64,000 nt of DNA. It comes from Chiua virens. Lineage: Eukaryota; Basidiomycota; Agaricomycetes; Boletales; Boletaceae. Location of the stretch: NCBI GenBank assembly GCA_019787685.1, contig JAHNUO010000009.1:1364001-1428000 (forward strand), given 5' to 3'. Within the stretch, counting starts at the first letter, position 1, and each line of letters begins with the position of its first letter. Position numbers and translations under genes: made by a program. This document shows, one piece after another, positions 9,755 through 63,452 of this stretch. The notes under the pieces were generated by a model. The model did no database searches. It saw nothing but the letters and a program-made list of their open reading frames with translations, and was not told where the DNA came from.

Positions 9755-11152
9755 ATGGATAATCGCGATGAATCCAGGCGTATCCTGATCTCCCTCGCTG
9801 CAGTAGCAACTCTACTGACTCGCTGTGTCATTTATCACTATATGCACTCTAGGATGTCCAAAGCTCCCACCGAAAAAGCCTCCTGGAATGCAAAGGAGGT
9901 GGAGGAGCTTGTCAACTATCTCTATACTCATCGTGCGCAAGGCGAGGGTGGTAATTTCAAGCCTGTGATATTCAATGGTGCCGCAGAACATCTTGCACAG
10001 TTCTGGACATCAGGGGCAGCAAAGACGGGGCAATCGGTCAAGAACAAGTGGAGTACCTCTGTACGTATATTGATCTTGCTTGCCGTGCACTACTGACATC
10101 CAAATAGATCCGAAAGACGCACATGGAGATCGAGACCTATCGGAATTTGTCTGGCGTTCACTATGATGATGAAAGCGGGGCTGGCATTGATGGGGAATAT
10201 GCGGAGAGTGTTTGGAAGGAGTACACCAAGGTATGCGTCCTATCGGATTGATCTGCAGCTTCAATTTATTTCTCTACAGAAACACCCTCAACTTCGCCCT
10301 TTCAAAAACGGTGGATGGGAGTTTACCAAGTACCTACGTGAAATTATGCCTGAAGCAGGCGCCAGGGGGCAGTACACGTTCGCCCCATCCAAGTCCACCC
10401 ACGTTGGAGCTGCAGAAACCAGTATCACAGCCAGCCCAGGACTCCAGCTGATCGACGGTGCCACCGATAGTGGCTTGGGGAGCAGCAGCGGCACCACTTC
10501 TGCAGACCCGAAGGGCAAGGAACGCGCAATTCCTGCCATCGATGTGACCACGTACATTCCCATACCGACTGCCACCACACGTCCCTCTGCCCCCTCCAGC
10601 GTGGGGAAGCAATCACACTTGGACATGACTGGTGATGACTCGGCATCAATCGCAGCATCGTCTGCTCTCCCCTTCTCCAGTGCATCATCTCCTCTCCTTT
10701 TCTCTAGCGTGTCATCCACTGGTCCCGCTGCCAAACGGATGAATCTCACTGCGGCAATGGCAACTGCTGCCGTTGCGCCTCCATCACGCAAGTCTGCCCC
10801 TACTCGGCCGTCTCCAAGTCACACCGCCAAGACTCTCATGCTTGGGATGCAAGGGTCCCTCAACCTCCTCACCTCCTCGCTCACAAACACGGCTACCTCT
10901 TCTGGAGACAAGGCCTCAGCCCGTCGGGAACTGGCGATGCAAATGTTGCACGAACAGGACAACGATCTGCCAAAGGATGTCAAAGCGTTCATCCGGGCAA
11001 TGATCACACATAATGTAGGCTTCACGGAGGTATATACACTGACTGTGGACAAGGACGAGCGTTTGGACTTTGTAAGAGTGGAGGTCAAGGGCATGAGAAA
11101 CAAGTCGAATGCTGGAGAGCCCGCACCGATTGCACTCCCTAACGCTTTCTAG
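9755..11152 (+). CDS. PIF/Harbinger SANT/Myb-like DNA-binding protein
   Basis: Three exons, 9755..10060, 10108..10230 and 10280..11152, give 433 residues. The N-terminal region (about residues 35-145) holds WNAKEVEELVNYLYTHR, FWTSGAAKTGQSVKNKWS and GWEFTKYLREI, the Trp-spaced trihelix pattern of the Myb/SANT-like partner protein of PIF/Harbinger elements, which binds transposon ends and helps transposase reach the nucleus. The middle is Ser/Thr/Pro/Ala-rich and likely disordered. The C-terminal part (MQMLHEQDNDLPKDVKAFI) is helical and probably an interaction domain. A nearby upstream hydrophobic ISLAAVATLL segment is in frame, so the true start could be the later Met at MSKAPTEKASW. Confidence 0.85.
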
Positions 11153-11265
11153 ATTGTATTGTCATTTGTACTACTGCTCTGTTGTCGTACTGTACTTGTA
11201 TGCAATCCGTTTCGAGTCTTTGATTGAAAAACATGTGAGATTGATACACATCGTGGTATTGTATT

Positions 11266-12738
11266 CTACTCGCCGACATCAGCATCATCCTCCAGGCCAC
11301 CGTCTTCATCGTCCGTCTCCTCGTCAACAAAGATGTCCCCGTCGTCCACATTGTCCCCCTCGTGAAGAATACGCTGATAGTCATCCCACATAGCTTGAGC
11401 GATGCGATCACGGAATGAACGTGCTACATGTGTGCGCTCATCGTCTTCAGCTCCACCCTCCCCATCCCCTCCGTCCCCTCCAACTTCTGAGTCCCGTGAG
11501 CTCGACCAGGAAGGCCCTCCGATATCATCCTCAAACGTGTGATCTCTGTCCCCTTCAAGAGCGTCTTCCAGATTGTGGATGCGAATGAAATTATGGATAG
11601 TGCCAAGTGCCGCGGGAATGCGGGCTTGGACATCCATACGGTACTCGGGGGAAAGTAGAAGAATCCGGAATCGATGCTTGAGTACGCCGAAGATATGTTC
11701 GATGACATTTCGTGCAGATGCGTGTCGAAGGTTGAATAATTCTTCTTTATTTGCTGGCCTATCAAAGTTGTACTAGTAGTTAGCAGCGTCATGATGATTT
11801 TGCGCTGACATAGTACATACCTCAGCTGTGCTCGACGCCACTCAGCTAGGTGATAGCGAACTCCCCGATATGGGACGAGCATCTCAGGACGCAGTGGAAA
11901 ACCAGCGTCTCCAAGAAAATATCTCCCATCCGGAACATACAAATCCTTTGAGCACGCGTCCTGGTAGATTCGTGCGTCTGTAGCCGATCCCTCCCACCCC
12001 GTTAGCGCATAGGTGAATAGCATTTCGAAGTCACATGCAAAAAGACAATTTTGAGAGACAAACCCTTTGCGATTCCGAAATGCTGCTCGGCATGATGCAG
12101 GGGGTGCCGCGTTGATGTGACTACCGTCTATAGCACTGATCGCACCCTTAAAGAAGGGCCAGAAGTGGGGGTTCGTACGGATCTTTGTGTGGATCTTGTC
12201 ATTGGCTGGCATGTGGACAAATTTTGTGTAGAATGGTGGGGACGAGAAGATAAAAAGCATTTTGCGGAAATACCTAGTGAATGGAGTGAGGGCCAGAGGG
12301 TTGGGGCAATAGAAATAATACTCACTGCGAGATCGTCTCATTTGACCTTTGAAAGCGCTCCCCGACATGCCTGATTGTCAAACCTGTAACACTCGAGTAG
12401 AGGAAGATGGCGAGTTGTTCTTCAAGCGATACGAACTTTGAGTTGCCATGTCCAATGGCCCGAAGCTCAGATACAAGTTTTGCAAAGACGTGCGCATGAA
12501 TTCCTAGTTCACACCGGATCCGTTCTGGATGGCCCACAAGCAGCTCTATAAGCCATGCTTCCCCAGTGAGCGCCGACGTATGATATGGTTCAGGCTGTTT
12601 CTTGGTGATCTTGCTTGATTCCAGTAAGGCTGTAGTAGCGCAGAGAGTAATGCTGAGGAGTAAAGTTGTGAAATGTATAATTCGCTGTCGGATCAGTGCT
12701 CGATGACACTCGATCTGTGTCTCAGAGTCAAAGTCCAT
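11266..12738 (-). CDS. PIF/Harbinger DDE transposase, copy 1
   Basis: Three minus-strand exons, 12326..12738, 11821..12273 and 11266..11758, give 452 residues with phases matching. The N-terminal helix-turn-helix region reads SLEEQLAIFLYSSVTGLTIRHVGERF with SNETIS. The nuclease core shows all three acidic residues in context: AISAIDGSHI, YFLGDAGFPL and ARNVIEHIFGVLKHRF. That is the DDE_Tnp_4/plant transposase pattern of this superfamily. The C-terminal tail is very acidic. I chose the ATG giving MDFDSETQ; a longer frame lacks an ATG. It cuts and pastes elements carrying the matching TIRs, and both copies in this window do. Confidence 0.92.
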
Positions 12739-13059
12739 TGGCGTAGTGGTCGTCCTGATAAGGTTCAGTATGGACAATGCCGCACGGCACAAATGATTGA
12801 AACTCAGACATCGGGATTCTCACAACGAACTTTGCAGTTTTGGGGTTTCCGAACGGGCTCTTAGGCATGACAGGAACCAAAAATTTCGTCATTCCTGGCC
12901 AGTGTGATGCATGACAGACAAATTGAGTGAAATACTACAGTATTAATCTGCAGTCGCTCGTTTGACCTTCTCCCATGCTTGGCACCTCTGTCTCCGAGTC
13001 GCTCATTTAACTTGGAGTTATTAGGCAGCTGCATGGGTATGGGTATTATCTAAAATGGA

Positions 13060-42566: not shown

Positions 42567-43084
42567 GTGACCGGAGTGGTCACCTTGTTGACGCTCATTG
42601 CATCCTCGTCATCCTCCTCTACTTCTACTAAAGCAGGGATGGGTTCAGGTTTTGGAGCGGTTTTCCTGACCTTCTTGGAAGTGGACGACAGTGGGTTTTT
42701 GGGGAATGCTGTGCAGGCGGACGTTTGGTGTCCTGGTTTGTGACAGCGGAAACAGAGTTTTTGTTCGAAGCATCGCTTTCGCTCTGCTTTGGTGAGTTTT
42801 GGAACATAGATGGCATCTACATCCATAGCGTCAGGGTCTCGCTCCTTCTTGCGAGGGGGGTTGTCGTGGTAGACGACAGCGGCAGTTGGTTTCTTGTTGT
42901 GGTGCGCGATTTCGTCGGCGCGCTCCCATTGAGTTTTGAAATGGATGGCTTGGGTATACCACTTGTCGATCGTGGTAGGGACCGTGTCCATTCCTTGGAT
43001 GCACCTCATGAGTGAGGGAGGAAGCCTGGCGGTGAAGAAGTTAATCAGGACGGAGTCAGAGCCGGTGAGTCCTGCGATGACGAC
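42557..43084 (-). pseudogene. element A gag, C-terminal part
   Basis: This resumes beyond element B with LTGSDSVLINFF, then WYTQAIHFKTQWERA, and holds the CCHC knuckle CFRCHKPGHQTSAC. It ends at TAA 42557-42559 in VTTPVTGF, directly after a G-GGT-TTT heptamer. It is the 3' half of the gag broken at 43084/49990. Confidence 0.88.
42560..42566 (-). promoter_or_regulatory. -1 frameshift heptamer, element A gag-pol
   Basis: Minus-strand G-GGT-TTT abuts the gag stop TAA. It is in the register needed for tandem -1 slippage, and the -1 frame leads directly into the protease frame. Confidence 0.65.
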
Positions 43085-43516
43085 TGAAACAACCTAGAAC
43101 AACCTAGACTGTTAAAGTTGTAGTGGTGTAGTGAAGAGGGGGTTCAGTCCAGTGAAGAGGCGAAAACTCCAAGAGAACTTTGTTAGAGCTTCTCTGGCTG
43201 TGATTCATGGGGTTTATATACTACATGGATATCGGAGTTCTAATCTGAGTTCGAACTACATAGATAAGCGTAATGTATCCTATTGGATGATAAGGTGTGA
43301 ATGTATATGAGTCATAGATAAGAGCATAGCCTTGCACTGCTATGGATGAGTCAGTGATAAGGGAAATGAAAAGATAAGGACATGTGTTGATGGATGCTGT
43401 GTTATTGTGGCAGCCAATCGGATATGTTCCTTTGGATAGCCTTGACATGAGGCGTTTATATTTAGAATCGATCAAACGTTGGATTTGAGAAGTGAGGAAA
43501 AGTTGATATCGTAACA
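43085..43516 (-). repeat. element B LTR (3' in element sense)
   Basis: 432 bp. The last 17 codons of pol (TISTFPHFSNPTFDRF region) run into it, ending at 43462. Confidence 0.92.
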
Positions 43517-46500
43517 CTATCCCCCTTCTGTTGATCATGCTCCGAATGATCTATTTCATAATTGAGGCGATGGAGACTATCCTCATCTTCGGGTGAAGTT
43601 TTATTGTCATAGGTTCGGAACATAGAGTTGAATTCGGTTTGTGTGACTTTTAGTTTTCTTGGGGCGTCCGGATGTGCTTCGTGGAAGTCAGAGATAAGAT
43701 CCGGTGCATTCTTTAGATTCTTTAGGGGTTCCCAAGTTCTTTTGTCATCATCATAACCTTTCCAGTGTATAAGATATTCTAAGCGGCGTCCTTTCATTCG
43801 GGAGTCGACAATGTAGTCTGCTTCGAATTCTTCTTCTCGGTCATCTCCGATTACGACAGGTCGTGGTTTATAAACCGGCTGTTCAGGGAGGTGTTCCTTA
43901 TAAGGTTTGACCTGAGAAATGTTTACGACTGGGTGTATTCTCATAGTTCGTGGGAGTCGAAGCTTTATAGCATTCGGTCCGTGCATAGAGATTATGTCAT
44001 AGGGGCCAATCCATTTATCCGTGAATTTTGGATGTTGTTTTATTTTTAGATTTGCTGTAGCGAGCCAGACCTTATCGCCAACCAAGTAGGAAGGGGGTTC
44101 TGATCTCGATCTATCAGCAGTGTTTTTCATGTTTTCCGCGGCTTTATCTATATTTGATTTGGTTTGTTCTAGAACTTCGGAGAAATCCGTGATAAAGTTC
44201 TGAGCAGCCGGGTTTTTCATGGATTGTGGCATAATTCCCATTCTAGGGACGTAGGAATGTGTTATTTCAAATGGTGAGAATTTAGTGGCAGTGTGTTTCT
44301 TGCTATTGTATGAGAATTGTGCGAGGGGAAGCCAATCGGCCCATGTGTTATCTTTCTCAGCACAGAACATGCGAAGATACTGTTGCACTTCTCGGTTCAT
44401 TCGTTCCGATTGTCCATCTGTTTGTGGGTGATGTGCGGTGCTTAATTTGGGTGTTATTTTTAACCCTGAACATATATCTTTCATAAGTTGGGAAGCGAAT
44501 TGTGGTCCTCTATCCGATATGATGGTTTTAGGAAGGCCATGATGTTTCCATATATGTGAGAGATATAATTTGGCGAGATCCATAGATGAACACGTTTTGT
44601 GGCAGGGAATGAATTCGACTTCTTTAGAGAAGCGGTCCACAACTGTGAGAATGGAATCATAGGAGTGCGAAAGTGGGAGATCTGTGATGAAATCTGCTGA
44701 GATGTCTTCCCATGGTGATGACGGTGTCTCTAAGGGTTGTAGGAGTCCTGCTGTTTTCTGATTAGAACCCTTGAATCGAGCGCATCTTTCGCAGTGTGAG
44801 ACATAATTTTTGACTTCATCGTTCATTCGAGGCCAGATGTAGGTTCGTGATAGAAGTTCTAAAGTTTTGTCATAACCGGGATGTCCAGCTTCTGGTGTGT
44901 CATGAAACATAGTTATAGATTTGGTGCGTAAAGCATCTGGAATGAAGATCCTATCCCCCTTTCTAAGGAAGGCGTCCTCGACTTTGTATCCAGTAGAAAG
45001 TAGATGTTTCATGGCATTAGGTGATAGTTTCATTGTTTCATGTTGTACATCAGATAGAAATTGATCACCGTTGTATAGGAGAGTGACGGCTGATCTGATC
45101 TTAGATGGATCCATGAGAAGGATTCCTTTGTTATCATCTTCAATTCCGATCATGTGATCTTCCCGTCTGCTTAAAGCATCTGCTTTTCCCATAGTGACTC
45201 CAGCCTTGTGGTGCCAAGTGAAGTTAAAGCGTGAGAGATATTGTGCCCATCTTGCTTGTCTTCTGTTAAGATCTTGGCGTGTCATAAACCACGTAAGGTT
45301 TTGGTGGTCATTCCATATTTCAAATTCATGTTTTGCACCCTCAAGGTAATAGCACCATAGTTCTAGAGAGCGGATAACCGAGAGCATTTCTTTGTCGGCT
45401 ATTGGGTAATTGCATTCTTCTGGGGTCATAGAGTGGCTATTGTATGCGACTGGGTGCCAAAGTCCTTCTTTTTCTAAAGATAGAACTGCTCCTGTAGCGA
45501 AGTCCGATGAGTCACATTCTAAGCAATATTTGGCATGTTGGTCCGGGTAAGCTAGAATAGGAGCTGTGGTAAAAGCCTTTTTAAGCATGGTGAATGCTTT
45601 GTCACAAGCGAAGGTCCATTCAAATTTCTGGTCCTTTTTAGTAAGGTCATGTAAAGGTCGTGCTATTTTTCCGTAATCTTTAATGAATCTGCGATAGAAG
45701 TTGGCAAGTCCGAGGAAGCTTCGGATGTGTTTGACTGAGGTGGGAGTTGGCCATTCAGCTACTGCTTTGGTCTTTTCGTTATCCATTTTAATTCCATCAG
45801 TTCCCACGATCATTCCAAGGAAGTCCACTTCTTTTACGCGAAAGTAGCATTTTTCTGGTTTTACGTAAAGGTCGTTATCTTCGAGGCGTTTAAGCACTTC
45901 GAGTACGATTTTGTCATGAGTTTCATAATCATCGGTGTTAGTGAATATCATAAGGTCATCGATGTAGACGACAACGACGCCGTTCATATCGGCAAAGATT
46001 TCGTTCATCATGGTTTGAAACGTTGCTGGAGAGTTACATAATCCGAAGTACATGACGATGGGTTCGTAGGATCCTCGGTGGCAGACAAATGCTGCTTTCC
46101 ATTCGTCGCCTTCTTTGATGCGTACGTTATTGTATCCCCATCGGAGATCCATTTTTGTAAATAGCTTAGTGTCTTTTAGTTTGTCTACAAGCTGTGAGAT
46201 AAGCGGTAAGGGGTAGTTATTTTTGCTTGTATGTTCATTTAGGTATCGGTAATCCTGGACCATACGCTTCTTTCCATCTTTCTTTGGGACAAAGAAGACC
46301 GGAGATGTCTGTTCGGATTTAGAGGGTCTGATGTAACCTTTCTTTAATTGGTCATCGATAAAAGCGGAGACCTCCTCTTGTTCTGTGACAGAGAGGGGTA
46401 TTAGTCGACCCTTCTTTGGAACGAAAGACTCTTTTAGGTCAATGCTGTGATCCCATGGTTTGCGTAATGGTATCCTCTCAGATTCCGTTTTTCCAAATAC

Positions 46501-47319
46501 TTTAGCATATTTTAAATATTCTCATGGGACCATCTCTTCAAGAGTGCGTTCCTTAGGAGGAGAAGGTGGAGTTTCCATGTTTGCGGTAAAAATACGAGAT
46601 TCCGCGATAGAGTTTGCATATTTAAGTTCTTCTGCGATAATGGAATCCAAGAAATCGTCTTCTTCTTGAGAATGACATGATTCCGGGCATCTCCGCATTA
46701 CAACTGATCCTGTGCTCCAGTCTATATGGGGGTTGTGGTGCTTTAACCATGTATATCCGAGGATAAGGTCGTTCTTTCCAAGGTTGGTAATTTCGGCATC
46801 CACTATTTCCCTGTGACCTTTGTAGTCAATCAAGATCTGTGTGGCGTGAGTGATAGAACCGGCTTGATTTTTGGTTCCGTCGACATTGAAGACTTGTATG
46901 GCATGGGGTAGCGCGTGAGTGGGGAGTTTGTGCTTAGCGACGTAATCCTCGTGTATGAAGATCGCATTAGCTCCACTATCTAAAAGCGCTTTTGCTCCAA
47001 CATAGCCGATTTGGTTTACTGGGGATACCAAAATTGGCAGTACTATTTCTTTTTCTAGCGATGTAGATCTAATGAAAGACCCATCGGGGATTTGTTTTGG
47101 GACAGAATTAAGCACGGAACTATCGTGTCCGCCGCGCTCCGCAGAGGCGCTGTCAACACTTTCGTTTTCTGTTGTTTTTGATGATTTAGGTAGTTTATCC
47201 TCTTGCCGGGGAGGTTTTTCGGAGTATTTGAAATCAAACTTTAAAGAGACAGAGTTTTTATATTCTTTAGGAAGGGTGGCGCGAACATGAGATCCCAGTT
47301 TACTCAGTTCGCCTTGCCT
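43462..47319 (-). CDS. element B protease-RT-RNase H-integrase-chromodomain polyprotein, one in-frame TGA
   Basis: One minus frame runs from the frameshift site near 47319 to 43462. Protease: ALLDSGANAIFI and LILGYTWLKHH. Reverse transcriptase: SPVFFVPKKDGKKRMVQDYR, LFTKMDLRWGYNN, VVVYIDDLMIF. RNase H: YCLECDSSDFATGAV. Integrase: a zinc region (AGHPGYDKTLELL, CERCARFKG), then SADFITDLP, IISDRGPQFAS and TDGQSERMNREVQQYL. Chromodomain: EADYIVDSRMKGRRLEYLIHWKGYDDDKRTWEP (shown here by its ends YIVDSR and HWKGYDDD). A TGA at 46522-46524 separates LEEMVP from EYLKYAKVF, where Arg (CGA) is the likely original. The fusion to the LTR tail is in frame. Confidence 0.9.
46522..46524 (-). other. in-frame TGA in element B pol
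   Basis: The only stop between protease and RT in an otherwise open frame of about 1,280 codons, in an element with apparently identical LTRs. Either a fresh nonsense mutation (CGA to TGA), a base-call error, or a read-through codon. Confidence 0.85.
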
Positions 47320-48485
47320 TTTCCCTTTCCGTTCTTGTTTTCATACATGTCGAAGTAATATGCTTGTACTTCCTCAGGGGACATCCCTCGGATGGCGGCA
47401 AAGGGGTCTTTGGCCGGTACAGATGGGGAAGTGGTGGAGGTAGAAGATATTGTTTTCTTCTCTTCCTTGTTTGTCGAGCGGACTTTGCACGAGCATTGCG
47501 TCTTATGAGATCCGCCGTACCACTTGCATTCACTGCACTGGTTTTTAGGTTTGGTGCATTCGTTGGTTCTGTGACCTGCACCGCCGCAGCTATAGCATTT
47601 GTTTGAGTTGTTGGTCTTCTTTTGACCAATGGCTCTAACTTCTTTTCCTGTGAACCAGCCATCTTCGTCTCTTTCGGCGTAAGTGGCTTGGCCAATGTCC
47701 ATAGCGTTGGGATCCTTATACTTTTTATAGCGGTCTGGTCGCACGTAGTTGAGTGCTTCCATGGCATTCCCCGCTGTTCGGATCCAGGAAAGGTAAGTAA
47801 TGACCGCGTGATCACGGTCAGGTTCATATTCTTTGTGATTGGGGTCCATGTACATTGGATGGAAGGGGTCTACCCTGTGCCCGTCACGGAAGATTTGATA
47901 TATGATGGAGTGGGCAGTGTTTGCCTCAAGGAGTCTTATCGTGTGGGAAGGGTCAATGTGTGCTTGTAGCCACAGAGCTTCCCATTGGACGATATAGTCC
48001 TCTACTCTCATCGTTCCTTGTTTGAGATTTTCTAATTGGGATCTAGCCCAATCAACCTTGTTGTTTTGTCGGAACATTCCTTCGATGTCCTGTACTAGTG
48101 TTGCCCACGTGAGGGCAGAGCCTTTAGCTAAGCGCGTTTCTGCGAATTGCGCCGCTTTCTTTCCTTTTAACCGTGAGAGTACGGCTTGTACGGCCCTGTA
48201 TGAGCCCTTGGGAATGGCGAGGCTGTTTACTTCAAGCCATCCTTTCATCTTGGCCCACCATTCTTCGAATTTGGCCATTTCTCCATCATATGACCCTGGG
48301 TCTGCGAAGATTTCGACTTTAGAAGATGAGGCTGTGGGGGGTATGACTGGTAAAGCATTAAGTTGCCCTTCTAGAGCGGTAATGAGATTCGCTTGTTCTG
48401 CAATGAGGACGAATGCGGCCTGTAGCCGATCTCCGTTTGTGCGAGTGGAGTCGTTTACTACTCCGAGTGCGGTGTGGTAATCCAT
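47304..48485 (-). CDS. element B gag
   Basis: A 393-residue gag starting MDYHTALGVVND. The retrotransposon gag core reads FEEWWAKMKGWLEV, ALTWATLVQDIEGMF and RVEDYIVQWEALWLQA. A CCHC knuckle CYSCGGAGHRTNEC follows, then a second Cys group (CSECKWYGGSHKTQC) with unusual spacing. The ATG has G at -3 and G at +4, a strong context, and lies 2 nt after the stop of ORF2. The stop TGA at 47304-47306 is preceded by a G-GGA-AAA heptamer. Confidence 0.92.
   Translation of the reverse strand: MDYHTALGVVNDSTRTNGDRLQAAFVLIAEQANLITALEGQLNALPVIPPTASSSKVEIFADPGSYDGEMAKFEEWWAKMKGWLEVNSLAIPKGSYRAVQAVLSRLKGKKAAQFAETRLAKGSALTWATLVQDIEGMFRQNNKVDWARSQLENLKQGTMRVEDYIVQWEALWLQAHIDPSHTIRLLEANTAHSIIYQIFRDGHRVDPFHPMYMDPNHKEYEPDRDHAVITYLSWIRTAGNAMEALNYVRPDRYKKYKDPNAMDIGQATYAERDEDGWFTGKEVRAIGQKKTNNSNKCYSCGGAGHRTNECTKPKNQCSECKWYGGSHKTQCSCKVRSTNKEEKKTISSTSTTSPSVPAKDPFAAIRGMSPEEVQAYYFDMYENKNGKGKGKAN
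47319..47325 (-). promoter_or_regulatory. -1 frameshift heptamer, element B gag-pol
   Basis: Minus-strand G-GGA-AAA, codons GGA and AAA in gag frame, 12 nt before the gag stop. Slipping back one base gives AGG CAA GGC GAA CTG, which runs straight into the protease frame (KLGSHVRA). Confidence 0.7.
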
Positions 48486-48487
48486 AT

Positions 48488-48757
48488 CTAGTTGTTGGAT
48501 TCGTTATCCCAGTCTCCTGCGTTTACTGGAGCGTTCCAAGGACCGGCGGTGTTGTTAATAACGGGGGGAGCCTGGTACTGGTAGTCCTGTTGTTCGTAGG
48601 GAGCGTAAAGGGCAAAGATGACTGTGTATTCGTTGAATTGGATCCTGAAGTTCAAGGATCTTTGGTAGTCGATCAAGTTCTTTGATACTTGGTAGAGAAT
48701 GAAGAGGACTGTGAGGAAGATTACAAAGATTGCTGCGAATACAAAGTATGCTAGCAT
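48488..48757 (-). CDS. element B ORF2, small single-helix membrane protein
   Basis: An 89-residue ORF between ORF1 and gag. Residues 2-22 (LAYFVFAAIFVIFLTVLFILY) form one strong membrane helix at the very N-terminus, followed by a polar Tyr/Gln/Asn-rich tail ending GDWDNESNN. The start ATG is fused to the stop of ORF1 (TAG-ATG) and has T at -3 and C at +4, a weak context. There is no other Met in any frame across the ORF. Such an ORF is not part of the usual Ty3 gag-pol set. I do not recognise a family. It might anchor particles or RNA to a membrane, but that is speculation. Confidence 0.65.
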   Translation of the reverse strand: MLAYFVFAAIFVIFLTVLFILYQVSKNLIDYQRSLNFRIQFNEYTVIFALYAPYEQQDYQYQAPPVINNTAGPWNAPVNAGDWDNESNN

Positions 48758-49336
48758 CTATTGGATGTATCTTTCAGGGAGTCTGAGAGTGTTTCGAGGC
48801 CTAAAGTAAGGGTACTCGAAATTATCGTATTGGGAATAAGGGCGGATTCGAGTTGGTACTCGGTTAGCCTTGTATCGTCTCAGGATTCTCTTTCTTTCGA
48901 GATCTGTCCTGGCGTTTCTCCTTTCAATCTCTCTGGGTGGGAGCCAATCGTTTGGGTCTCCTAAACTTTCCTCTGATGGTTCTCTCAAAGGAGCTGGTGG
49001 GAAAGGTGATGGTTCTCTTTTGGGAATAGGAGCGGGAAAGTATTCGCGCTTAACCTCAACTTCCTCAGTTGGATACCTAAGTTCCGGGCTGTCGGACCGG
49101 GTTGACTCTCGTTCACTAGAGTAGTCTGATAAGGGAGTGGTTTCCCCTAAAAAGTGGCCTAATAAGGCGTGGAAGATTTCAGTGTCGGTACGGTCTTCGG
49201 GATCAAGGTCCTCGAGAGCGACGACTTCTGCGAGATAGGCTGCGTCGAAGACGTAGGGTTCGTCGACGAGGTCAGGGTAAGCCTCAGCGGCTGCTGCGAT
49301 GGCTGAGAGGGGTAGGTTCGACACTGATTGGGCAGG
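48758..49336 (-). CDS. element B ORF1, open frame without any ATG
   Basis: An open frame of about 190 codons after a TGA near 49337-49339, ending in the TAG that abuts the ORF2 ATG. It has no ATG in frame; possible near-cognate starts include GTG at 49322-49324 and an ATC in a good context (GCCATCG) a few codons later. The text is protein-like: an Ala-rich helix (SAIAAAAEAYPDL), an acidic part (ALEDLDPEDRTDTEIF), a Pro/Glu part (PAPIPKREPSPFPPAP), and a basic C-terminus (REIERRNARTDLERKRILRRYK). A related frame just upstream (KTQGLAIAEANSAPLTRKE, to 49410) could precede it after a shift or splice. Function unknown. Confidence 0.55.
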   Translation of the reverse strand, partial: PAQSVSNLPLSAIAAAAEAYPDLVDEPYVFDAAYLAEVVALEDLDPEDRTDTEIFHALLGHFLGETTPLSDYSSERESTRSDSPELRYPTEEVEVKREYFPAPIPKREPSPFPPAPLREPSEESLGDPNDWLPPREIERRNARTDLERKRILRRYKANRVPTRIRPYSQYDNFEYPYFRPRNTLRLPERYIQ

Positions 49337-49544
49337 TCAGTTAAGATCTCCTTTCTGGTCAAGGGTGCGCTATTTGCTTCTGCGATTGCTAGACCTTGAG
49401 TCTTTTGCAATTCGGCTTATTGGTAGCAAACGTTCCAACTACTTTTCAAACTTGGGACTTACTTGGGCCCGGTTGTGTTATTTTGTAGTAGGGGCTACGA
49501 CGAGGTTGTGACTTGACAGTAGTCGATCAACGGCGAAGATAAAC

Positions 49545-49555
49545 AACAAAGTTCT
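49545..49555 (-). promoter_or_regulatory. element B primer-binding site, self-priming type
   Basis: AGAACTTTGTT (minus sense), 2 nt inside the 5' LTR, is the exact complement of AACAAAGTTCT at 49647-49657, which lies about 28 nt after a TATAAA and is therefore the predicted 5' end of the mRNA. This is the Tf1-type self-priming arrangement. Confidence 0.65.
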
Positions 49556-49557
49556 AA

Positions 49558-49989
49558 TGAAACAACCTAGAACAACCTAGACTGTTAAAGTTGTAGTGGT
49601 GTAGTGAAGAGGGGGTTCAGTCCAGTGAAGAGGCGAAAACTCCAAGAGAACTTTGTTAGAGCTTCTCTGGCTGTGATTCATGGGGTTTATATACTACATG
49701 GATATCGGAGTTCTAATCTGAGTTCGAACTACATAGATAAGCGTAATGTATCCTATTGGATGATAAGGTGTGAATGTATATGAGTCATAGATAAGAGCAT
49801 AGCCTTGCACTGCTATGGATGAGTCAGTGATAAGGGAAATGAAAAGATAAGGACATGTGTTGATGGATGCTGTGTTATTGTGGCAGCCAATCGGATATGT
49901 TCCTTTGGATAGCCTTGACATGAGGCGTTTATATTTAGAATCGATCAAACGTTGGATTTGAGAAGTGAGGAAAAGTTGATATCGTAACA
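49558..49989 (-). repeat. element B LTR (5' in element sense)
   Basis: 432 bp, same as 43085-43516. In minus sense it contains the promoter and predicted transcription start. Confidence 0.92.
49686..49691 (-). promoter_or_regulatory. TATA box of element B LTR
   Basis: Minus-strand TATAAA within TATATAAACC, about 28 nt before the predicted start site at 49657. Confidence 0.6.
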
Positions 49990-49994
49990 ACGAC

Positions 49995-50684
49995 CTTGTT
50001 TCGGAAGGAGGAGATGTACGAGGGGATGTCCTCGTTCTTGGTGACGCGGGTGGTGGATAGCCAGGTGATAGCGTCGCCCTTGGTGTCGTGGTGTTCGAAG
50101 TCCTTTCGGAACTCCGTCTGCCAGTCGGTCCAGGTGCCAAAGGATCTTGCGATGATGGACTTGGCGTGGAACATGTCGGCCCAAGTCAGAGCAGATCCCT
50201 CGGTCATGAAGGAGAGCGCAAAAGCGACTCGTTTGTTCTCAGTGTTGTAGACATCTTTGTTAACGAAGAGGTAGGTGGCGACGTCATTGAGCCAAGGTAT
50301 AGCTTGGTCGTAGGAGCCATTGAAGGCGGTGGGTTTTCCGAGACGAAGTTCAACTGCCTTGTTAGACATGTTGGTCGAGGTGGGTGGTGGAAACCATATG
50401 GGTGGAGGTACGATAGACGGGTTCGGGTTCCGGATAGATGATGGTCCAGGGTTCAGCCTTCGTGGGGTCGTTGGGGACGCGAAGGTGGCAAGTGCAGGGA
50501 TGTCAAGTGATTGATGAAGACGGTCAGCTAGTTGCTGAGTTTCGTCCTCCGAGTCAAGGTGCTCGACGTTGATGTCGAGGTCTGCTTCCTGGTGTTCAGA
50601 AAGTGGGGTCGAGGGTTCAGGGTTTTCGTCAGATAGATCAGACGACGGAGTGTTGGAAGCCCGGAGATTCCAGGCGGGGTTCAA
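49995..50684 (-). pseudogene. element A gag, N-terminal part
   Basis: The first about 230 residues of element A gag (KAVELRLGKPTAFNGSYDQAIPWL, SALTWADMFHAK, TEFRKDFEHHDTKGDA; here given as their key words) run to the element B insertion at 49994. Beyond it the frame enters the LTR of B and stops at 49935, a fusion without meaning. No ATG precedes the conserved part until MSNKAVEL at about 50369, so that is the probable start. Confidence 0.85.
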
Positions 50685-50765
50685 GAGTGGACGGGTGGGA
50701 GGTCGTCCTGCAATGGTGGGCAGCTAGCTGCGCGAAGGCAGGCTGTATTGGTAGTCTTGATCTTA

Positions 50766-51394
50766 TGTTACGATAGTTCCGGGTAGGACCTAACGTAGCC
50801 GCAAAAGCGCCAAGTACCAAGTGGCTGCGATAACTCAAACAACCACCACTTGATACGTGGTGTGCTGAAGAGTTGAACAAGGGTTTCTGGTCAGCGGATG
50901 GCTACCAGAGAGACGAGTGAAAACTCAGGCATTGCTGAGAGTTGTCCTGTTGGGAATCTATACCTGAGGGACGGTCGAGGGTCAAGGGTTGACTACGAAG
51001 AGTCCGAGTGTTGGGTCAAGGGACGACGAGAGAAGTCCCTGGTCGAGTGGTCACAAGGAGAGGTCCGAGTGGAGCAGAGATACTCAGCTAGATTGTGGGT
51101 ACTACAGAAGTACGGTGGTACAGAGGGAGTATCGCTGCGAGTTATATACGTTTGATATAAAGGGGTGTTCCATCGAAGGGAAGAACTAAGTAAAGGGAAC
51201 AAAGGTGAAGTGGGAACACTTCGTAAGAAGAGGGAGTCATGCAACGATGACCGATTGAGGAACAAAAAGAAGCTACCATGCTATGGAGCGATATGATCTC
51301 CGCAAGTACGGGGAGTGGGTCATAGAGTGGAAGAGCTAAGGTAAGAGTCCATTGGGAAATGGAGTCGACAAGGCAAAAGAGAAAAGTTGTAACA
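50766..51394 (-). repeat. element A LTR (5' in element sense)
   Basis: 629 bp, about ten transitions from 36784-37412. The minus-strand TATATAA at about 51142-51150 is a candidate TATA box. Confidence 0.92.
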
Positions 51395-52645
51395 GGCAGC
51401 AAAGACGGGGCAATTGGTCAAGAACAAGTGGAGTACCTCTGTACGTATATTGATCTTGCTTGCCGTGCACTACTGACATCCAAATAGATCCGAAAGACGC
51501 ACATGGAGATCGAGACCTATCGGAATTTGTCTGGTGTTCACTATGATGATGAAAGCGGGGCTGGCATTGATGGGGAATATGCGGAGAGTGTTTGGAAGGA
51601 GTACACCAAGGTATGCGTCCTATTGGATTGATCTGCAGCTTCAATTTATTTCTCTACAGAAACACCCTCAACTTTGCCCTTTCAAAAACGGTGGATGGGA
51701 GTTTACCAAGTACCTACGTGAAATTATGCCTGAAGCAGGCGCCAGGGGGCAGTACGCGTTCACCCCATCCAAGTCCACCCACGTTGGAGCTGCAGAAACC
51801 AGTATCACAGCCAGCCCAGGACTCCAGCTGATCAACGGTGCCACTGATAGTGGCTTGGGGAGCAGCAGTGGCACCACTTCTGTAGACCCAAAGGGCAAGG
51901 AACGCGCAATTCCTGCCATCGATGTGACCACGTACATTCCCATACCGACTGCCACCACATGTCCCTCTGCCCCCTCCAGCGTGGGGAAGCGATCACACTC
52001 GGACATGACTGGTGATGACTCAGCATCAATCGCAGCATCGCCTGCTCTCCCCTTCTCCAGTGCATCATCTCCTCTCCTTTTCTCTAGCGCGTCATCCACT
52101 GGTCCCGCTGCCAAACGGATGAATCTCACTGCGGCAATGGCAACTGCTGCCATTGCGCCTCCATCACGCAAGTCTGCCCCTACTCAGCTGTCTCCAAGTC
52201 ACACCGCCGAGACTCTCATGCTTGGGATGCAAGGGTCCCTCAACCTCCTCACCTCCTCGCTCACAAACACGGCTACCTCCTCTGAAGACAAGGCCTCAGC
52301 CCGTTGGGAACTGGCGATGTGAATGTTGCACGAACAGGACAACAATCTGCCAAAGGATGTCAAAGCGTTCATCCAGGCGATGATCGCACATAATGTAGGC
52401 TTCACGGAGGTATATACACTGACCGTGGACAAGGACGAGCGTTTGGACTTTGTAAGAGTAGAGGTCAAGGGCATGAGAAACAAGTTGAATGCTGGAGAGC
52501 CTGCACCGATTGCACTCCCTAACGCTTTCTAGATTGTATTGTCATTTGTACTACTGCTCTGTTGTCGTACTGTACTTGTATGCAATCTGTTTTGAGTCTT
52601 TGATTGAAAAACATGTGAGATTGATACACATCGTGGTATTGTATT

Positions 52646-54118
52646 CTACTCGCCGACATCAGCATCATCCTCCAGGCCACCATCTTCATCGTCCGTCTCC
52701 TCGTCAACAAAGATGTCCCCATCGTCCACATTGTCCCCCTCGTGAAGAATATGCTGATAGTCATCCCACATAGCTTGAGCGATGCGATCACGGAATGAAT
52801 GTGCTACATGTGTGCGCTCATTGTCTTTGGCCCCACCCTCCCCATCCCCTCCGTCCCCTCCAACTTCTGAGTCCCGTGAGCTCGACCAGGAAGGCCCTCC
52901 GATATCATCCTCAAACGTGTGATCTCTGTCCCCTTCAAGAGCATCTTCCAGATCGTGGATGCGAATGAAATCATGGATAGTGCCAAGTGCCGCAGGAATG
53001 CAGGCTTGGACATCCATATGGTACTCGGGGGAAAGTAGAAGAATCCGGAATCGACGCTTGAGTACGCCGAAGATACGTTCGATGACATTTCGTGCAGATG
53101 CGTGTTGAAGGTTGAATAATTCTTCTTTATTTGCTGGCCTATCAAAGTTGTACTAGTAGTTAGCAGCATCATGATGATTTTGCACTGACATAGTACATAC
53201 CTCAGCTGTGCTCGACGCCACTCAGCTAGGTGATAGCAAACTCCCCGATACGGGACAAGCATCTCAGGACGCAGTGGAAAACCAGTGTCTCCAAGAAAAT
53301 ATCTCCCATCCGGAACATACAAATCCTTTGAGCACGCATCCTGGTAGATTCGTGCGTCTGTAGCTGATCCCTCCCACCCCGTTAGTGCATAGGTGAATAG
53401 CATTTCAAAGTCACATGCAAAAAGACAATTTTGAGAGACAAACCCTTTGCGATTCCGAAATGCTGCTCGGCATGATGCAGGGGGTGCCATGTTGATGTGA
53501 CTACCGTCTATAGCACTGATCGCACCCTTAAAGAAGGGCCAGAAGCAGGGGTTCGTACGGATCTTTGTGTGGATCTTGTCATTGGCCGGCATGTGGACAA
53601 ATTTTGTGTAGAATGGTGGGGACGAGAAGATAAAAAGCATTTTGCAGAAATACCTAGTGAATGGAGTGAGGGCCAGAGGGTTGGGGCAATAGAAATAATA
53701 CTCACCGCGAGATCGTCTCATTTGACCTTTGAAAGTGCTCCCCGACATGCCTGATTGTCAAACCTGTAACACTCGAGTAGAGGAAGATGGCGAGTTGTTC
53801 TTCAAGTGATACGAACTTTGAGTTGCCATGTCCAATGGCCCGAAGCTCAGATACAAGTTTTGCAAAGACGTGCGCATGAATTCCTAGTTCACACCGGATC
53901 CGTTCTGGATGGCCCACAAGCAGCTCTATAAGCCATGCTTCCCCAGTAAGCGCCGACGTATGATATGGTTCAGGCTGTTTCTTGGTGATCTTGCTTGATT
54001 CCAGTAAGGCTGTAGTAGCGCAGAGAGTAATGCTGAGGAGTAAAGTTGTGAAATGTATAATTCGCTGTCGGATCAGTGCTCGATGACACTCGATCTGTGT
54101 CTCAGAGTCAAAGTCCAT
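52646..54118 (-). CDS. PIF/Harbinger DDE transposase, copy 2
   Basis: Exons 53706..54118, 53201..53653 and 52646..53138 correspond base for base to copy 1 shifted by 41,380. The frame is intact. DDE residues are in AISAIDGSHI, YFLGDTGFPL (Ala to Thr next to the second Asp) and the third exon's NVIE motif region. Substitutions are mostly transitions (for example ERF to EHF, INA to INM). It could still act in trans on both TIR sets. Confidence 0.88.
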
Positions 54119-54244
54119 TGGCGTAGTGGTCATCCTGATAAGGTTCAGTATGGACAATGCTGCACGGCACAAATGATTGAAACTCAGACATCGGGATTCT
54201 CACAATGAACTTTGCAGTTTTGGGGTTTCCGAACGGGCTCTAAG

Positions 54245-54358
54245 GTACTGGATCAAACCTGACCAAATAAACAAACAAAACCTGGCCAAAACAAGCCACA
54301 TTAGAACAAACAATCCTGACCAAACAAACCAATCCTGACCAAATATAACCAAACATTA
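54245..54358. repeat. short CCTGACCAAA repeats
   Basis: Between the PIF right end and the next LTR, CCTGACCAAA occurs three times with a CCTGGCCAAA variant, in an A/C-rich setting. No element ends were recognised. Confidence 0.45.
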
Positions 54359-54386
54359 TTGTTACAATAGTTCCAGGTAGGACCTA

Positions 54387-55974
54387 CAGTGGCTCAAACA
54401 ACTGTCCCAATGTTTGCATGTTTTTCACTAAACGCAATAAAACGCGGTAACCACTAAACCTTACCCAGACCTGTGGGAATATAAAATATAGTACCTACTC
54501 CTGGCTTTCTATTGGACCAAGAGTCAAAGGATTTGAATAAGATTTGATGAAATGGCAATCATTTCAAAATGATCACTCATTGGGACAGTTCTTTGACTTT
54601 AAGTTTGGATTACATATATCAGACCCTAACATGTTGGAAAGTACTTACATACATTTGATAATGGTTCTATCATGTTATATTTATGTAACTATCATCAGCT
54701 AGCACCATATAAACCCCACTATTCCATAGTAACTTCCCTATCATCATTATGAAACCTATCTCCAGCTCTTAAGGGACAATAATGTCTCCTTCCCTTTCCT
54801 TAATCTTTCTTCCAGGAAAATAACCTCTGAAACTGGTCTGGGCAAGTCTATAGTGTCTAGGGTGCTTCAAGAAATCCAGCTAGACAAGACTAAACATCTT
54901 GGTGGTCACCCTTTAAAGTTTTCATTTACCAGCAAAAGGGCTATTGTACAATAGATCATTACTGGCAAGGCCAAAAATGCTGTTCAGCTCACTATACTTA
55001 TCAATACCATTATTGATACTCCTCTCTGCCATCTGATAGCCAGAAATACCCTCAGGGAAGCCTCTTTGAAAGCTGTGGTAGAGAACAAAAACTTCTTCTC
55101 TTCAAGAGTCACAAGAAAGGATGGTTGGCCTATGCTTTCCAATACTAGCATTGGACTGTGGAGGGTGGGAAAAGGGTCATATAGTTAAATGAGACTAAAG
55201 TCAATAGGATTGGGTCATATAAACAAGCATATGTGTGGAAAAAGGCAGGAGAGTAGTTGATTGCTAGAGGTACAGTCAAGCATAGAGGAGGCTATGGGCC
55301 TATATAGGATGGAATGGAGTGGGAGTTTAGAGTGAGATGTACAGAAGGATAGATGCTGAGCAGTATGTGACAATTTCATAGCAGGGGTTTCTGGAAAACA
55401 CCAAAGAATTTTAAATTTCAGAAGGTAATATCATTTTTCAATAAGATAATGATCCCAAGCATACCTCTAAAAGAATTCAGACCTGGGTCAAAGATCACGA
55501 GATTGGATCTTTAGATTGGCCTGCACAGTCTCTAAACCTCACTTCCTTTGAACATACCTGAAATCATCTCAAAAAATGACTTTTAGCTTATAAAAGTGCC
55601 CCTAAAGGAGTTTATCATTTATAGGAGAGGTTAGTAGAGGAGTGGGGGAATATTTGTGCAGAATAGCATTAGAAATGGATTAAAAGCATGCATAGAAGGC
55701 TTGAAGCTGTTATCAAGGCAAAAGGAGGTCATACCAAATATTAAATACTTACATTTATATAAAGTCAAAAAACTGCCCCAATGAGTGATCATTTTGAAAT
55801 GATTGCCATTTCATCAAATCTTATTCAAATTCTTTGACCCTTGGTCCAATAGAAAGCCAGGAGTAGGTACTATATTTCATATTCCAACAGGTCTGGGTAA
55901 GGTTTAGTGGTTACTGTGTTTTATTGTGTTTAGTGAAAAAGATGCAAACATTGGGACAGTTGTTTGAGCCACTG
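54387..55974 (+). mobile_element. Tc1/mariner-type element, copy 1, mutated
   Basis: The ends CAGTGGCTCAAAC are inverted and flanked by TA (54385-54386 and 55975-55976). TIRs are about 215 bp. Between them, plus-strand text reads as a Tc1 transposase with many stops: a helix-turn-helix part (GKSIVSRVLQEIQ), a first catalytic block where the family's W-S-D-E-T-K is I-stop-L-N-E-T-K, KKAGE, and NDPKHTSKRIQTW followed by LDWPAQSLNL. TGG-TCA-GAT has become TAG-TTA-AAT, the change expected from C-to-T mutation on both strands. Confidence 0.88.
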
Positions 55975-56269
55975 TAGCATAGTCGCAAAAGCACCAAGTA
56001 TCAAGTGGCTGTGATAACTCAAACAACCACCACTTGATATGTGATGTGCTGTAGAGTTTGATGAGGATTATTAGTCAGCAGATTGCTACTAATGAGATGA
56101 GTGAAGACTCAAGAAGTTTCCTGAGTTGTCCTGTCGAGAATCTATACTCTTGGGACTGAGTGTTTGAGGGTTGACTCTTGGAGCCCAAAGGGGAGTAGAG
56201 ATACTCAGCTAGATTGCAGAGATCAAGACTAGTGTACAGGAGTATCTCAGTTAGGTATTTATAGGTAAG

Positions 56270-61772: not shown

Positions 61773-61774
61773 TA

Positions 61775-63339
61775 CAGTGGCTCAAACAACTGTCCCAATG
61801 TTTGCATGTTTTTCACTAAACATAACAAAACGCAGTAACCACTAAACCTTACCCAAATCTGTGGGTGTATGAAATATAGTGCTTACTCCTGGCTTTCTAT
61901 TGGACCAAGGGTCAAAGAATTTGAATAAGATTTGATGAAATGGCATTCATTTCAAAATGGTCACTCATTGGGACAGTTTTTTGACTTTATATAAATATAA
62001 GTATTTAGTATTTAGTATGACCTCCTTTGGCCTTGATAACTACTTCAAGCCTTCTATTCATGCTTTTAATCCATTTCTGATGCTATTCTGCACAAATTTT
62101 CCCCCACTCCTCTGCTAACCTCTCCTATAAATGATAAACTCCTTAGAGGCACTTTTATACACTAAAAGTTATTGTTTCAGATAATTTCAGGTATGTTCAA
62201 AGGAAGTGAAGTATAGAGACTGTGCAGGCCAATCTAAAGATCCAATCTCTTGATCTTTTACCCATGTCTGAACTGTTTTAGAGGTATGCTTGGCATTATT
62301 ATCTTATTGAAAAATGATCTCACCTTCTGAAATTGTAAAATTTTCAATGCTTTCCAGCAACCCCTGCTTTGAAATTGTCACATACTGCTCAGCATCCATC
62401 TTTCTGTACATCTCACTCTAAACTCCCACTCCATTCCACCCTATATAGGCCTATGCCTGACTATACCTCTAGCAATTAATTACTCTCCTGCATTTTTCCA
62501 CACATACTCTTGTTTGTATGACCCAATCCTATTGACTTTAGTCTCATTTAACTATACAACCCTTTCCCCACCCTCCACAGTCCAATGCTAGTATTTGAAA
62601 GCATAGGCCAATCATCTTTTCTTGTGACTCTTGAAGAGAAGAGGTTTTTGTTCTCTACTACAGCTTTCAAAGAGGCTTTCTTGAGGGTATTTCTGACTGT
62701 CTGAGGGTAGAGAGGAGTATCAATAATGATATTGATAAGTATAATGAGCTGAATAGCATTTTTGGCCTTGCCAGTAATGATCTGTTATACAATAGCCCTT
62801 TTGCTGGTAAATGAAAACTTTGAAGAGTAACCACCAAGATATTTAGTCTTGTCTAGCTGGACTTCCTGAAGGACCCTAGACACTGTAGACTTGCCTAGAC
62901 AAGTTTGAGAGGTTATTTTCCTGGAAGAGAGATTCAGGAAAAGGAAGGGGACAGTATTTTCCCTTAAGAGCTTTCATGATGATGATAGGAAAGTTACTAT
63001 GAAATGGTGGGGTTTATATGGTGCTAGCTGATGATAGTTACATAAATATAACATAATAGAACCATTATCAAATGTATGTAAGTACTTTACAACATGTTAG
63101 GGTCTAATATATGTAATCCAAACTTAAAGTCAAAGAACTGTCCCAATGAGTGATCATTTTGAAATGATTGCCATTTCATCAAATCTTATTCAAATCCTTT
63201 AACCCTTGGTCCAATAGAAAGCCAGGAGTAGGTACTATATTTCATATTCCCACATGTTTGGGTAAGATTTAGTGGTTACCGCGTTTTATTGCATTTAGTG
63301 AAAAACATGCAAACATTGGGACAGTTGTTTGAGCCACTG
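61775..63339 (-). mobile_element. Tc1/mariner-type element, copy 2, opposite orientation
   Basis: The same CAGTGGCTCAAAC ends and long TIRs as 54387-55974, flanked by TA (61773-61774 and 63340-63341). The transposase remnant reads on the minus strand. 1,565 bp; stops throughout. With copy 1 it forms an inverted pair about 5.8 kb apart. Confidence 0.87.
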
Positions 63340-63452
63340 TATGTAAGATGTAAGTGATAATGAAAGTAAAGAATTAATGAATGTGATTATGTAATGAATG
63401 AAGAGAATTTATTATTCTGACAGTAGGAGCAAAAGATTGATGAGTGAAATTG

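Follow-up and report, generated by a model that had tools for sequence, protein, structure and literature searches.

Rice tungro bacilliform virus (RTBV) and the badnaviruses, of the Caulimoviridae, precede their main open reading frame (ORF) with two ORFs that have no internal AUG, and combine leaky scanning over about 900 nt and abutting stop and start codons with the use of splicing (passages of PMC5902531). Among Ty3-type long terminal repeat (LTR) retrotransposons, the Drosophila MDG1 group (412, Mdg1 and Stalker2) has a pair of small ORFs ahead of gag, of which the second encodes a short protein with one membrane helix that has been proposed to carry particles between cells (passages of PMC11952523); in the plant element Ogre gag is preceded by a long ORF, and part of the transcripts lose an intron (passages of PMC6317226 and PMC1142308); and the Tcn1 clade, without tRNA sites, belongs to Tf1/sushi (passages of PMC6317226). 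Here we describe element B, which resembles these systems in layout or in predicted expression and lies on the minus strand of a 64,000-nt stretch of the Chiua virens genome (contig JAHNUO010000009.1, positions 1,364,001 to 1,428,000; hereinafter the window). It is a putatively self-priming, chromodomain-bearing Ty3-type retrotransposon with two accessory genes, ORF1 and ORF2, ahead of gag. Element B has an ATG desert in its leader, conserved splice signals, an ATG split by those signals, conserved reading frames and a gradient of start contexts. We propose, with a probability of about 0.76, that ORF1 is translated from an AUG made by splicing and that the unspliced RNA is translated by leaky scanning.

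A predicted intron at the start codon of ORF1

In the window copy the signals of a spliceosomal intron, namely a donor at 49462 (CCCAA/GTAAGT, the slash marking the junction), a branch-site-like motif and an acceptor at 49324 (CTTAACTGACCTGCCCAATCAG/TGTCG), delimit a predicted intron between the primer-binding site and ORF1 that ends exactly at the ORF1 start. Removal of this intron would join the end of exon 1, ...GGGCCCAA (49463), to TGTCG... (49323), giving CCCAATGTCG, in which an AUG in frame with ORF1 (MSNLPLSAIAAAAEAYPDLVDE...) arises from the last base of exon 1, A, and the first two bases of exon 2, TG. Without splicing, the RNA has GUG as the ORF1 start codon, with an in-frame stop five codons upstream. 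If the start codon is split in this way, gene finders will miss ORF1.

A search with ORF2 recovered 58 genome matches including the window copy, and the other 57 were examined with their flanks; their ORF2 identity to that of the window ranges from 97% to 37%. By pattern, both splice sites are kept in 54 of the 58 loci, with intron lengths of 132-155 nt; of these 54 intron-bearing loci, 52 have A as the last base of exon 1 and 52 have TG at the start of exon 2. The subfamilies differ in the adjoining bases (CCCAA versus ACAGA on the donor side, CAG versus TAG at the acceptor), whereas A/GTAAGT and AG/TG are constant. The same split-AUG pattern is kept in lineages whose ORF2 is about 46-64% identical to that of the window (L045, L046, L049 and L058), and also at loci whose ORF2 sequence is very different. 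Genome-wide, the pattern GTAAGT-N90..120-CTTWACTGA occurs at 129 places (reversed control, 4), with an A before it at 126 (control, 2) and with both this A and AG/TG behind it at 120 (reversed control, 0); these places include lineages beyond the reach of the ORF2 search.

Six of the pattern loci, representing four distinct places, were examined: at three places an ORF2 of other sequence and similar build was found, and L079 is broken. The former (L071/L082, L072/L084 and L081) constitute a subfamily with ORF1, the split AUG and a very different ORF2 with an N-terminal membrane helix, which in L072 is 81 aa long and starts MSWELVAIALIISC. This ORF2 also has a similar stretch, (F)GLFSPYEE / FALYAPYEQ, and the divergence could possibly reflect module exchange or fast evolution. 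Within the introns, an alignment of 32 sequences gives only a weak RNA-fold consensus (-3.0). With a loose, uncontrolled pattern, 50 of 54 introns contain GAC(Y)NNNGGTC, a short motif resembling a hairpin, and the subfamily 2 introns contain a direct repeat, ATAGCGCA...ATAGCGCA. Motif and repeat are possible packaging or regulatory signals, though we make no claim of a packaging signal.

An ATG desert and a gradient of start contexts

In the Tf1 mechanism of self-priming, the 5′ end of the RNA pairs with a site behind the LTR. In the window copy the 11 nt from 49657, AACAAAGTTCT, match the reverse complement of 49545-49555 at every position (11/11 nt). The latter is a primer-binding site that begins two bases past the 5′ LTR, and the complementarity is also perfect in the distant copies L045, L059 and L062. 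This match points to self-priming of the Tf1 kind and, together with a TATATAA located 30-36 nt upstream, supports 49657 as the predicted start site from sequence; a start downstream of ORF2 is not what the match suggests. In another copy, L030, which has 3 ATGs in its leader and 15 in the 330-nt upstream stretch, the start site is uncertain because two matches resembling primer-binding sites suggest a rearranged LTR.

From 49657 to 48483 (minus strand, 1175 nt) the window copy has only two ATGs, those of ORF2 (48757) and gag (48485), and the frame ahead of ORF2 is open for 188 codons without any. The junctions are TAG-ATG between ORF1 and ORF2 and TAG-AT-ATG between ORF2 and gag, with T at -3 and C at +4 of the ORF2 start and G at both positions of the gag start. 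An earlier note on this DNA had described all of this correctly (giving the open frame as about 190 codons) but set the expected number of ATGs, about 18, too high: base composition gives 14.7 and dinucleotide-preserving shuffles 7.2 (SD 2.3). Since 26 of 2000 such shuffles have at most two ATGs, the depletion in the single window copy is significant, not extreme; it becomes strong only through comparison across the family.

For this comparison we used 32 copies in which an ORF1 of at least 185 aa is followed by ORF2. From the start site to ORF2, 15 of the 32 have no ATG and the remaining copies 1 to 5. For the desert counts L012, L032, L037, L041 and L053, with an altered ORF2 or other damage, were dropped. 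In the resulting 27 copies the 330 nt upstream of the start site (U3) contain a mean of 8.2 ATGs (range 6 to 15 per copy), the stretch from the start site to the splice acceptor 0.19 per 334 nt (24 copies having none), ORF1 0.56, ORF2 up to gag 0.33 and the first kb of gag 23.1. ORF2's own ATG is the sole one between the start site and gag in 11 copies; none of the 27 has a methionine inside ORF1; and the intron is ATG-free in 25, as expected if intron-bearing RNA is scanned. ATG stands at 2.1 per leader versus 23.7 in 1100 nt of gag, whereas no depletion affects CTG (11.6 versus 10.0) or TTG (20.7 versus 9.1); GTG is also low (2.8 versus 9.5). The desert from start site to gag thus recurs in intact copies, whose ORFs ahead of the main one have no internal AUG, as in leaders of the RTBV type. 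Two more of the findings that the earlier note had named as speaking against its reading can be assessed: family members with many leader ATGs, which do exist, but solely as older, broken copies, and an intron removing ORF1 and ORF2, whereas the one predicted here lies entirely upstream of ORF1.

Position -3 is C at the spliced ORF1 AUG and T at the ORF2 start in all 32 copies, and a purine at the gag start in 30 of 32, the exceptions being L012 and L053, which are both damaged. Judged by the usual scanning rules, these contexts are weak, weak and strong, and weak upstream starts before a stronger main one are likewise a feature of RTBV-type leaders. The median ratio of non-synonymous to synonymous rates (dN/dS) is 0.096 for ORF1 (27 copies, 350 pairs), 0.064 for ORF2 (27 copies, 351 pairs) and 0.091 for gag (18 copies, 132 pairs, leaving out 9 copies with stops in the compared stretch), and differences in ORF1 between the two main subfamilies fall 23/9/68% at codon positions 1/2/3 (112 pairs). 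These values indicate that ORF1 and ORF2 are under purifying selection, as is gag.

A candidate splicing switch and its rivals

In the mechanism that we propose, the unspliced RNA would offer ribosomes a GUG as the first codon of ORF1 and no AUG ahead of that of ORF2, so that they would scan about 900 nt to the weak ORF2 AUG, some continuing to the strong gag AUG; this RNA would double as the genome. Splicing would join the A of exon 1 to the UG of exon 2, thereby switching on ORF1, and only unspliced RNA would yield new copies. Because the ORF1 AUG is weak (C at -3), the downstream genes need not shut off fully on the spliced RNA. The RTBV-like leaky scanning advocated in the earlier note is supported by the family-wide desert and the start-context gradient; what it missed is how ORF1 starts, as it treated ORF1 as a non-AUG ORF, whereas a conserved intron ends right at ORF1 and its splicing would assemble an AUG. 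Rev-type proteins in lentiviruses act on the splicing, export or packaging of intron-bearing genomic RNA. An extended version of the model would make splicing a translational switch (no ORF1 start codon in the genome, with intron loss turning GUG into AUG), let ORF1 feed back in a Rev-like manner on these same steps for the intron-bearing genomic RNA, and have ORF2 help particles across membranes; we hold this to be doubtful as a whole, and the Rev-like role of ORF1 is a guess.

Constitutive splicing would differ from this proposal in that nearly all mRNA would be spliced, with ORF1, ORF2 and gag all translated from it, either because ribosomes scan leakily past two weak AUGs or because they re-initiate where stops and starts abut, and with unspliced RNA serving as genome only. 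The strong donor, the gradient across all three start contexts and the abutting codons are all consistent with it; however, it does not need the ATG-free intron, and we consider it unlikely. Even less probable is that no splicing takes place and that ORF1 starts at a non-AUG codon (the GUG at 49324 or another), comparable to the AUU of RTBV ORF I. Such an account would make use of the ATG-poor leader and of the in-frame GUG found exactly at the ORF1 start in AG/TG copies, but would leave unexplained the conserved donor, branch-like motif and acceptor, as well as the A before the donor at 126 of 129 places. Lastly, the desert could be due to low TG content or amino-acid use, with the splice signals being inherited relics without present function. 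While the low expectation from dinucleotide shuffles, the little present selection seen within subfamilies in the variant test below and the low GTG count can be claimed for this explanation, the depletion of ATG with CTG and TTG spared, the abrupt change in ATG at the start site and the low dN/dS of ORF1 make it very improbable.

Several points weigh against the splice-made AUG and the scanned unspliced RNA. Synonymous shuffles of the window copy reach zero ATG in 18 of 100 cases for ORF1 and 83 of 100 for ORF2, for which reason the coding stretches alone are weak evidence. Within subfamilies, the variants that create an ATG number 2 versus 5.6 at random in the noncoding leader (P 0.07), 6 versus 7.7 in ORF1 (P 0.32) and 6 versus 7.8 in ORF2 (P 0.34); as this test is non-significant, present-day selection against ATGs is unsupported. 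Many copies may be dead. Four of the 58 loci are without the intron or one of its sites, and all four are decayed or deleted: L050 and L061 retain the acceptor only, their donor being lost, L065 has lost exon 2 and L055 has no leader. The junction A is missing in L042, GTAT is inserted at the donor of L047, and L059 and L060 have TA for TG, these four being damaged copies. The genome-wide patterns presupposed GTAAGT, making the 54 of 58 ORF2 loci the less biased figure, and the family counts are not independent because the copies share ancestry. Moreover, splicing, the translation of both RNAs by scanning and the fate of each RNA are what we infer from sequence. Finally, the genome search for intron-less copies used probes for just three spliced-junction patterns (up to 3 mismatches), with six of the eight off-target subfamily 2 matches and all seven matches to the third pattern uninspected. 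Within these bounds no intron-less copy was recognized. The subfamily 1 probe gave three matches, all in sequence unrelated to element B (L066 and L067 without an ORF1 match, L068 with a weak one on the other strand only), compared with 50 intron-bearing subfamily 1 junctions at the same mismatch limit (control, 2). With the subfamily 2 probe, 30 of 38 matches are intron-bearing copies, and L075 and L076, among the other eight, have no ORF1 match; the third-lineage probe gave 7 two-mismatch matches versus 5 in the control. This lack of intron-less copies fits a genome copied from unspliced RNA and would equally fit no splicing at all.

Architecture of element B and comparison with known systems

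The coordinates of element B are collected in Table 1. Its domain order (reverse transcriptase [RT], RNase H, integrase, then chromodomain), LTRs and short target-site duplication are those of a Ty3 chromovirus, and its gag product has a retrotransposon gag domain and a zinc knuckle scoring slightly under the cut-off. The two LTRs are identical at 432/432 nt and flanked on both sides by GTCGT, the host site being inside another element. One in-frame stop interrupts the pol frame at 46522-46524, between protease and RT. With identical LTRs and yet a stop in pol, this copy looks like a recent insertion already damaged in pol.

Table 1. Features of element B in the window, in 5′ to 3′ order of the element.
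Feature	Positions	Strand	Description
Target-site duplication	49990..49994 (upstream copy), 43080-43084 (downstream copy)	-	GTCGT, 5 bp
5′ LTR	49558..49989	-	TG..CA, 432 nt, same sequence as 3′ LTR
Predicted RNA 5′ end	49647..49657	-	AACAAAGTTCT, also predicted self-primer
Exon 1 (predicted)	49463..49657	-	195 nt, no ATG; ends in A (49463), which supplies the first base of the spliced ORF1 AUG
Primer-binding site	49545..49555	-	AGAACTTTGTT, complementary to RNA 5′ end
Intron (predicted)	49324..49462	-	139 nt, GTAAGT...CAG, no ATG
Branch-site-like motif	49336..49345	-	CTTAACTGAC
ORF1, exon 2 part	48758..49323	-	first two bases, TG, belong to the split AUG; 188 aa with the spliced M included
ORF2	48488..48757	-	89 aa, single membrane helix predicted at the N-terminus, start context weak
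gag	47304..48485	-	393 aa, zinc knuckle, strong start context
pol frame	43462..46263	-	RT, RNase H, integrase, chromodomain; listed ORF extends into 3′ LTR
3′ LTR	43085..43516	-	432 nt

Neither ORF1 nor ORF2 has a Pfam match, even at E<=1, and protein searches returned 575 candidates for ORF1 and 1 for ORF2, none at E<=0.001. ORF1 is acidic at its start (13 acidic and 1 basic among residues 1-60) and basic at its end (9 acidic and 17 basic among residues 121-188); its single-sequence structure prediction has a low-confidence helix (130-153) over the arginine-rich stretch and a mean pLDDT of 58, too low for a fold search. The ORF2 model comprises an N-terminal helix, with pLDDT >90 over about the first 30 residues, and a disordered tail; the helix, which is hydrophobic, begins at residue 2, with the best hydropathy window at residue 3. 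No relatives of the pol and gag of element B were found in viral_contigs, and no Rfam match at E<=1 within 47000-50300.

Elsewhere in the window, the neighboring element A (region 50200-50900, minus strand) is ATG-free from 50931 down to 50398. What are probably its gag ATGs follow at 50397 and 50369, and a TTG frame is open in this region (50684); no GTAAGT-like donor was seen. The window also contains a long repeat (10015-12865 and 51395-54245; 2.85 kb, 97% identity) and an inverted repeat pair (54384-55976 and 61773-63341; 1.6 kb, 92%, 217-nt related ends).

Leaders of the leaky-scanning kind have precedents in plant pararetroviruses, and chromoviruses that self-prime and Ty3 elements that are spliced are likewise known. 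RTBV ORF I has an AUU start, to which ribosomes come by shunting across a leader that contains short upstream ORFs, whereas the intact element B leader has no such ORFs and its first ORF would start at a spliced AUG or, less probably, at the unspliced GUG. Splicing, too, serves another end: in RTBV it fuses a leader upstream ORF to the distal ORF IV, while in element B it would make the AUG of the first ORF. Changing the RTBV AUU to AUG lowers ORF III translation (passages of PMC5902531); by analogy, splicing in element B would make such a non-AUG-to-AUG change naturally. Membership in the Caulimoviridae itself, whose genomes have neither LTRs nor integrase, does not fit the LTRs and integrase core of element B. 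Element B resembles the self-priming chromoviruses of the Tf1/sushi type in its chromodomain and in the complementarity of its RNA 5′ end to the site behind the LTR. We know of no such chromovirus with two leader genes and a leader intron, and a literature search named none. The intron of Ogre differs from that of element B in lying between gag-prot and RT, where it serves polyprotein translation, not a start codon.

What is new, to our knowledge and within the literature searched, is the combination, in the leader of an LTR retrotransposon, of an intron-split start codon with an unspliced form that has no AUG. No splice-made start codon in an LTR retrotransposon was described in the titles and abstract openings found, most subscription papers lying outside the search. 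Splicing may also be needed for the env start codons of insect gypsy-type elements; the search turned up nothing on these, and a precedent is possible. According to passages of a 2005 paper (PMC1142308), reports of an intron ahead of gag were then lacking for all LTR retroelements; if our proposal holds, the intron of element B would be one that lies upstream of gag and leaves gag in place. An LTR retrotransposon would then store a gene without a start codon and make that codon by splicing, and a single intron would determine if ribosomes halt at an accessory gene or continue scanning as far as the structural ones.

The likeness to the MDG1 group is one of gene layout and protein build, with no sequence relation shown. 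As in element B, the small ORFs of that group have low non-synonymous/synonymous rates; in the passages of PMC11952523 that describe them, their full-length transcripts show no splicing, unlike the prediction for element B, sORF1 has its own short transcript ending behind it, and sORF2 bears an N-myristoylation motif in 4 of 6 cases, thus not in all. By inspection, the ORF2 N-terminus has no such motif (ML in the window copy, MS in L072), and a basic patch behind the helix is clear only in L072. In being a short protein with one predicted membrane helix, ORF2 resembles MDG1 sORF2 and FAST-like proteins. Next to the MDG1 group, element B would offer a further and apparently independent example of a pair of small genes ahead of gag in which the latter of the pair encodes a membrane protein.

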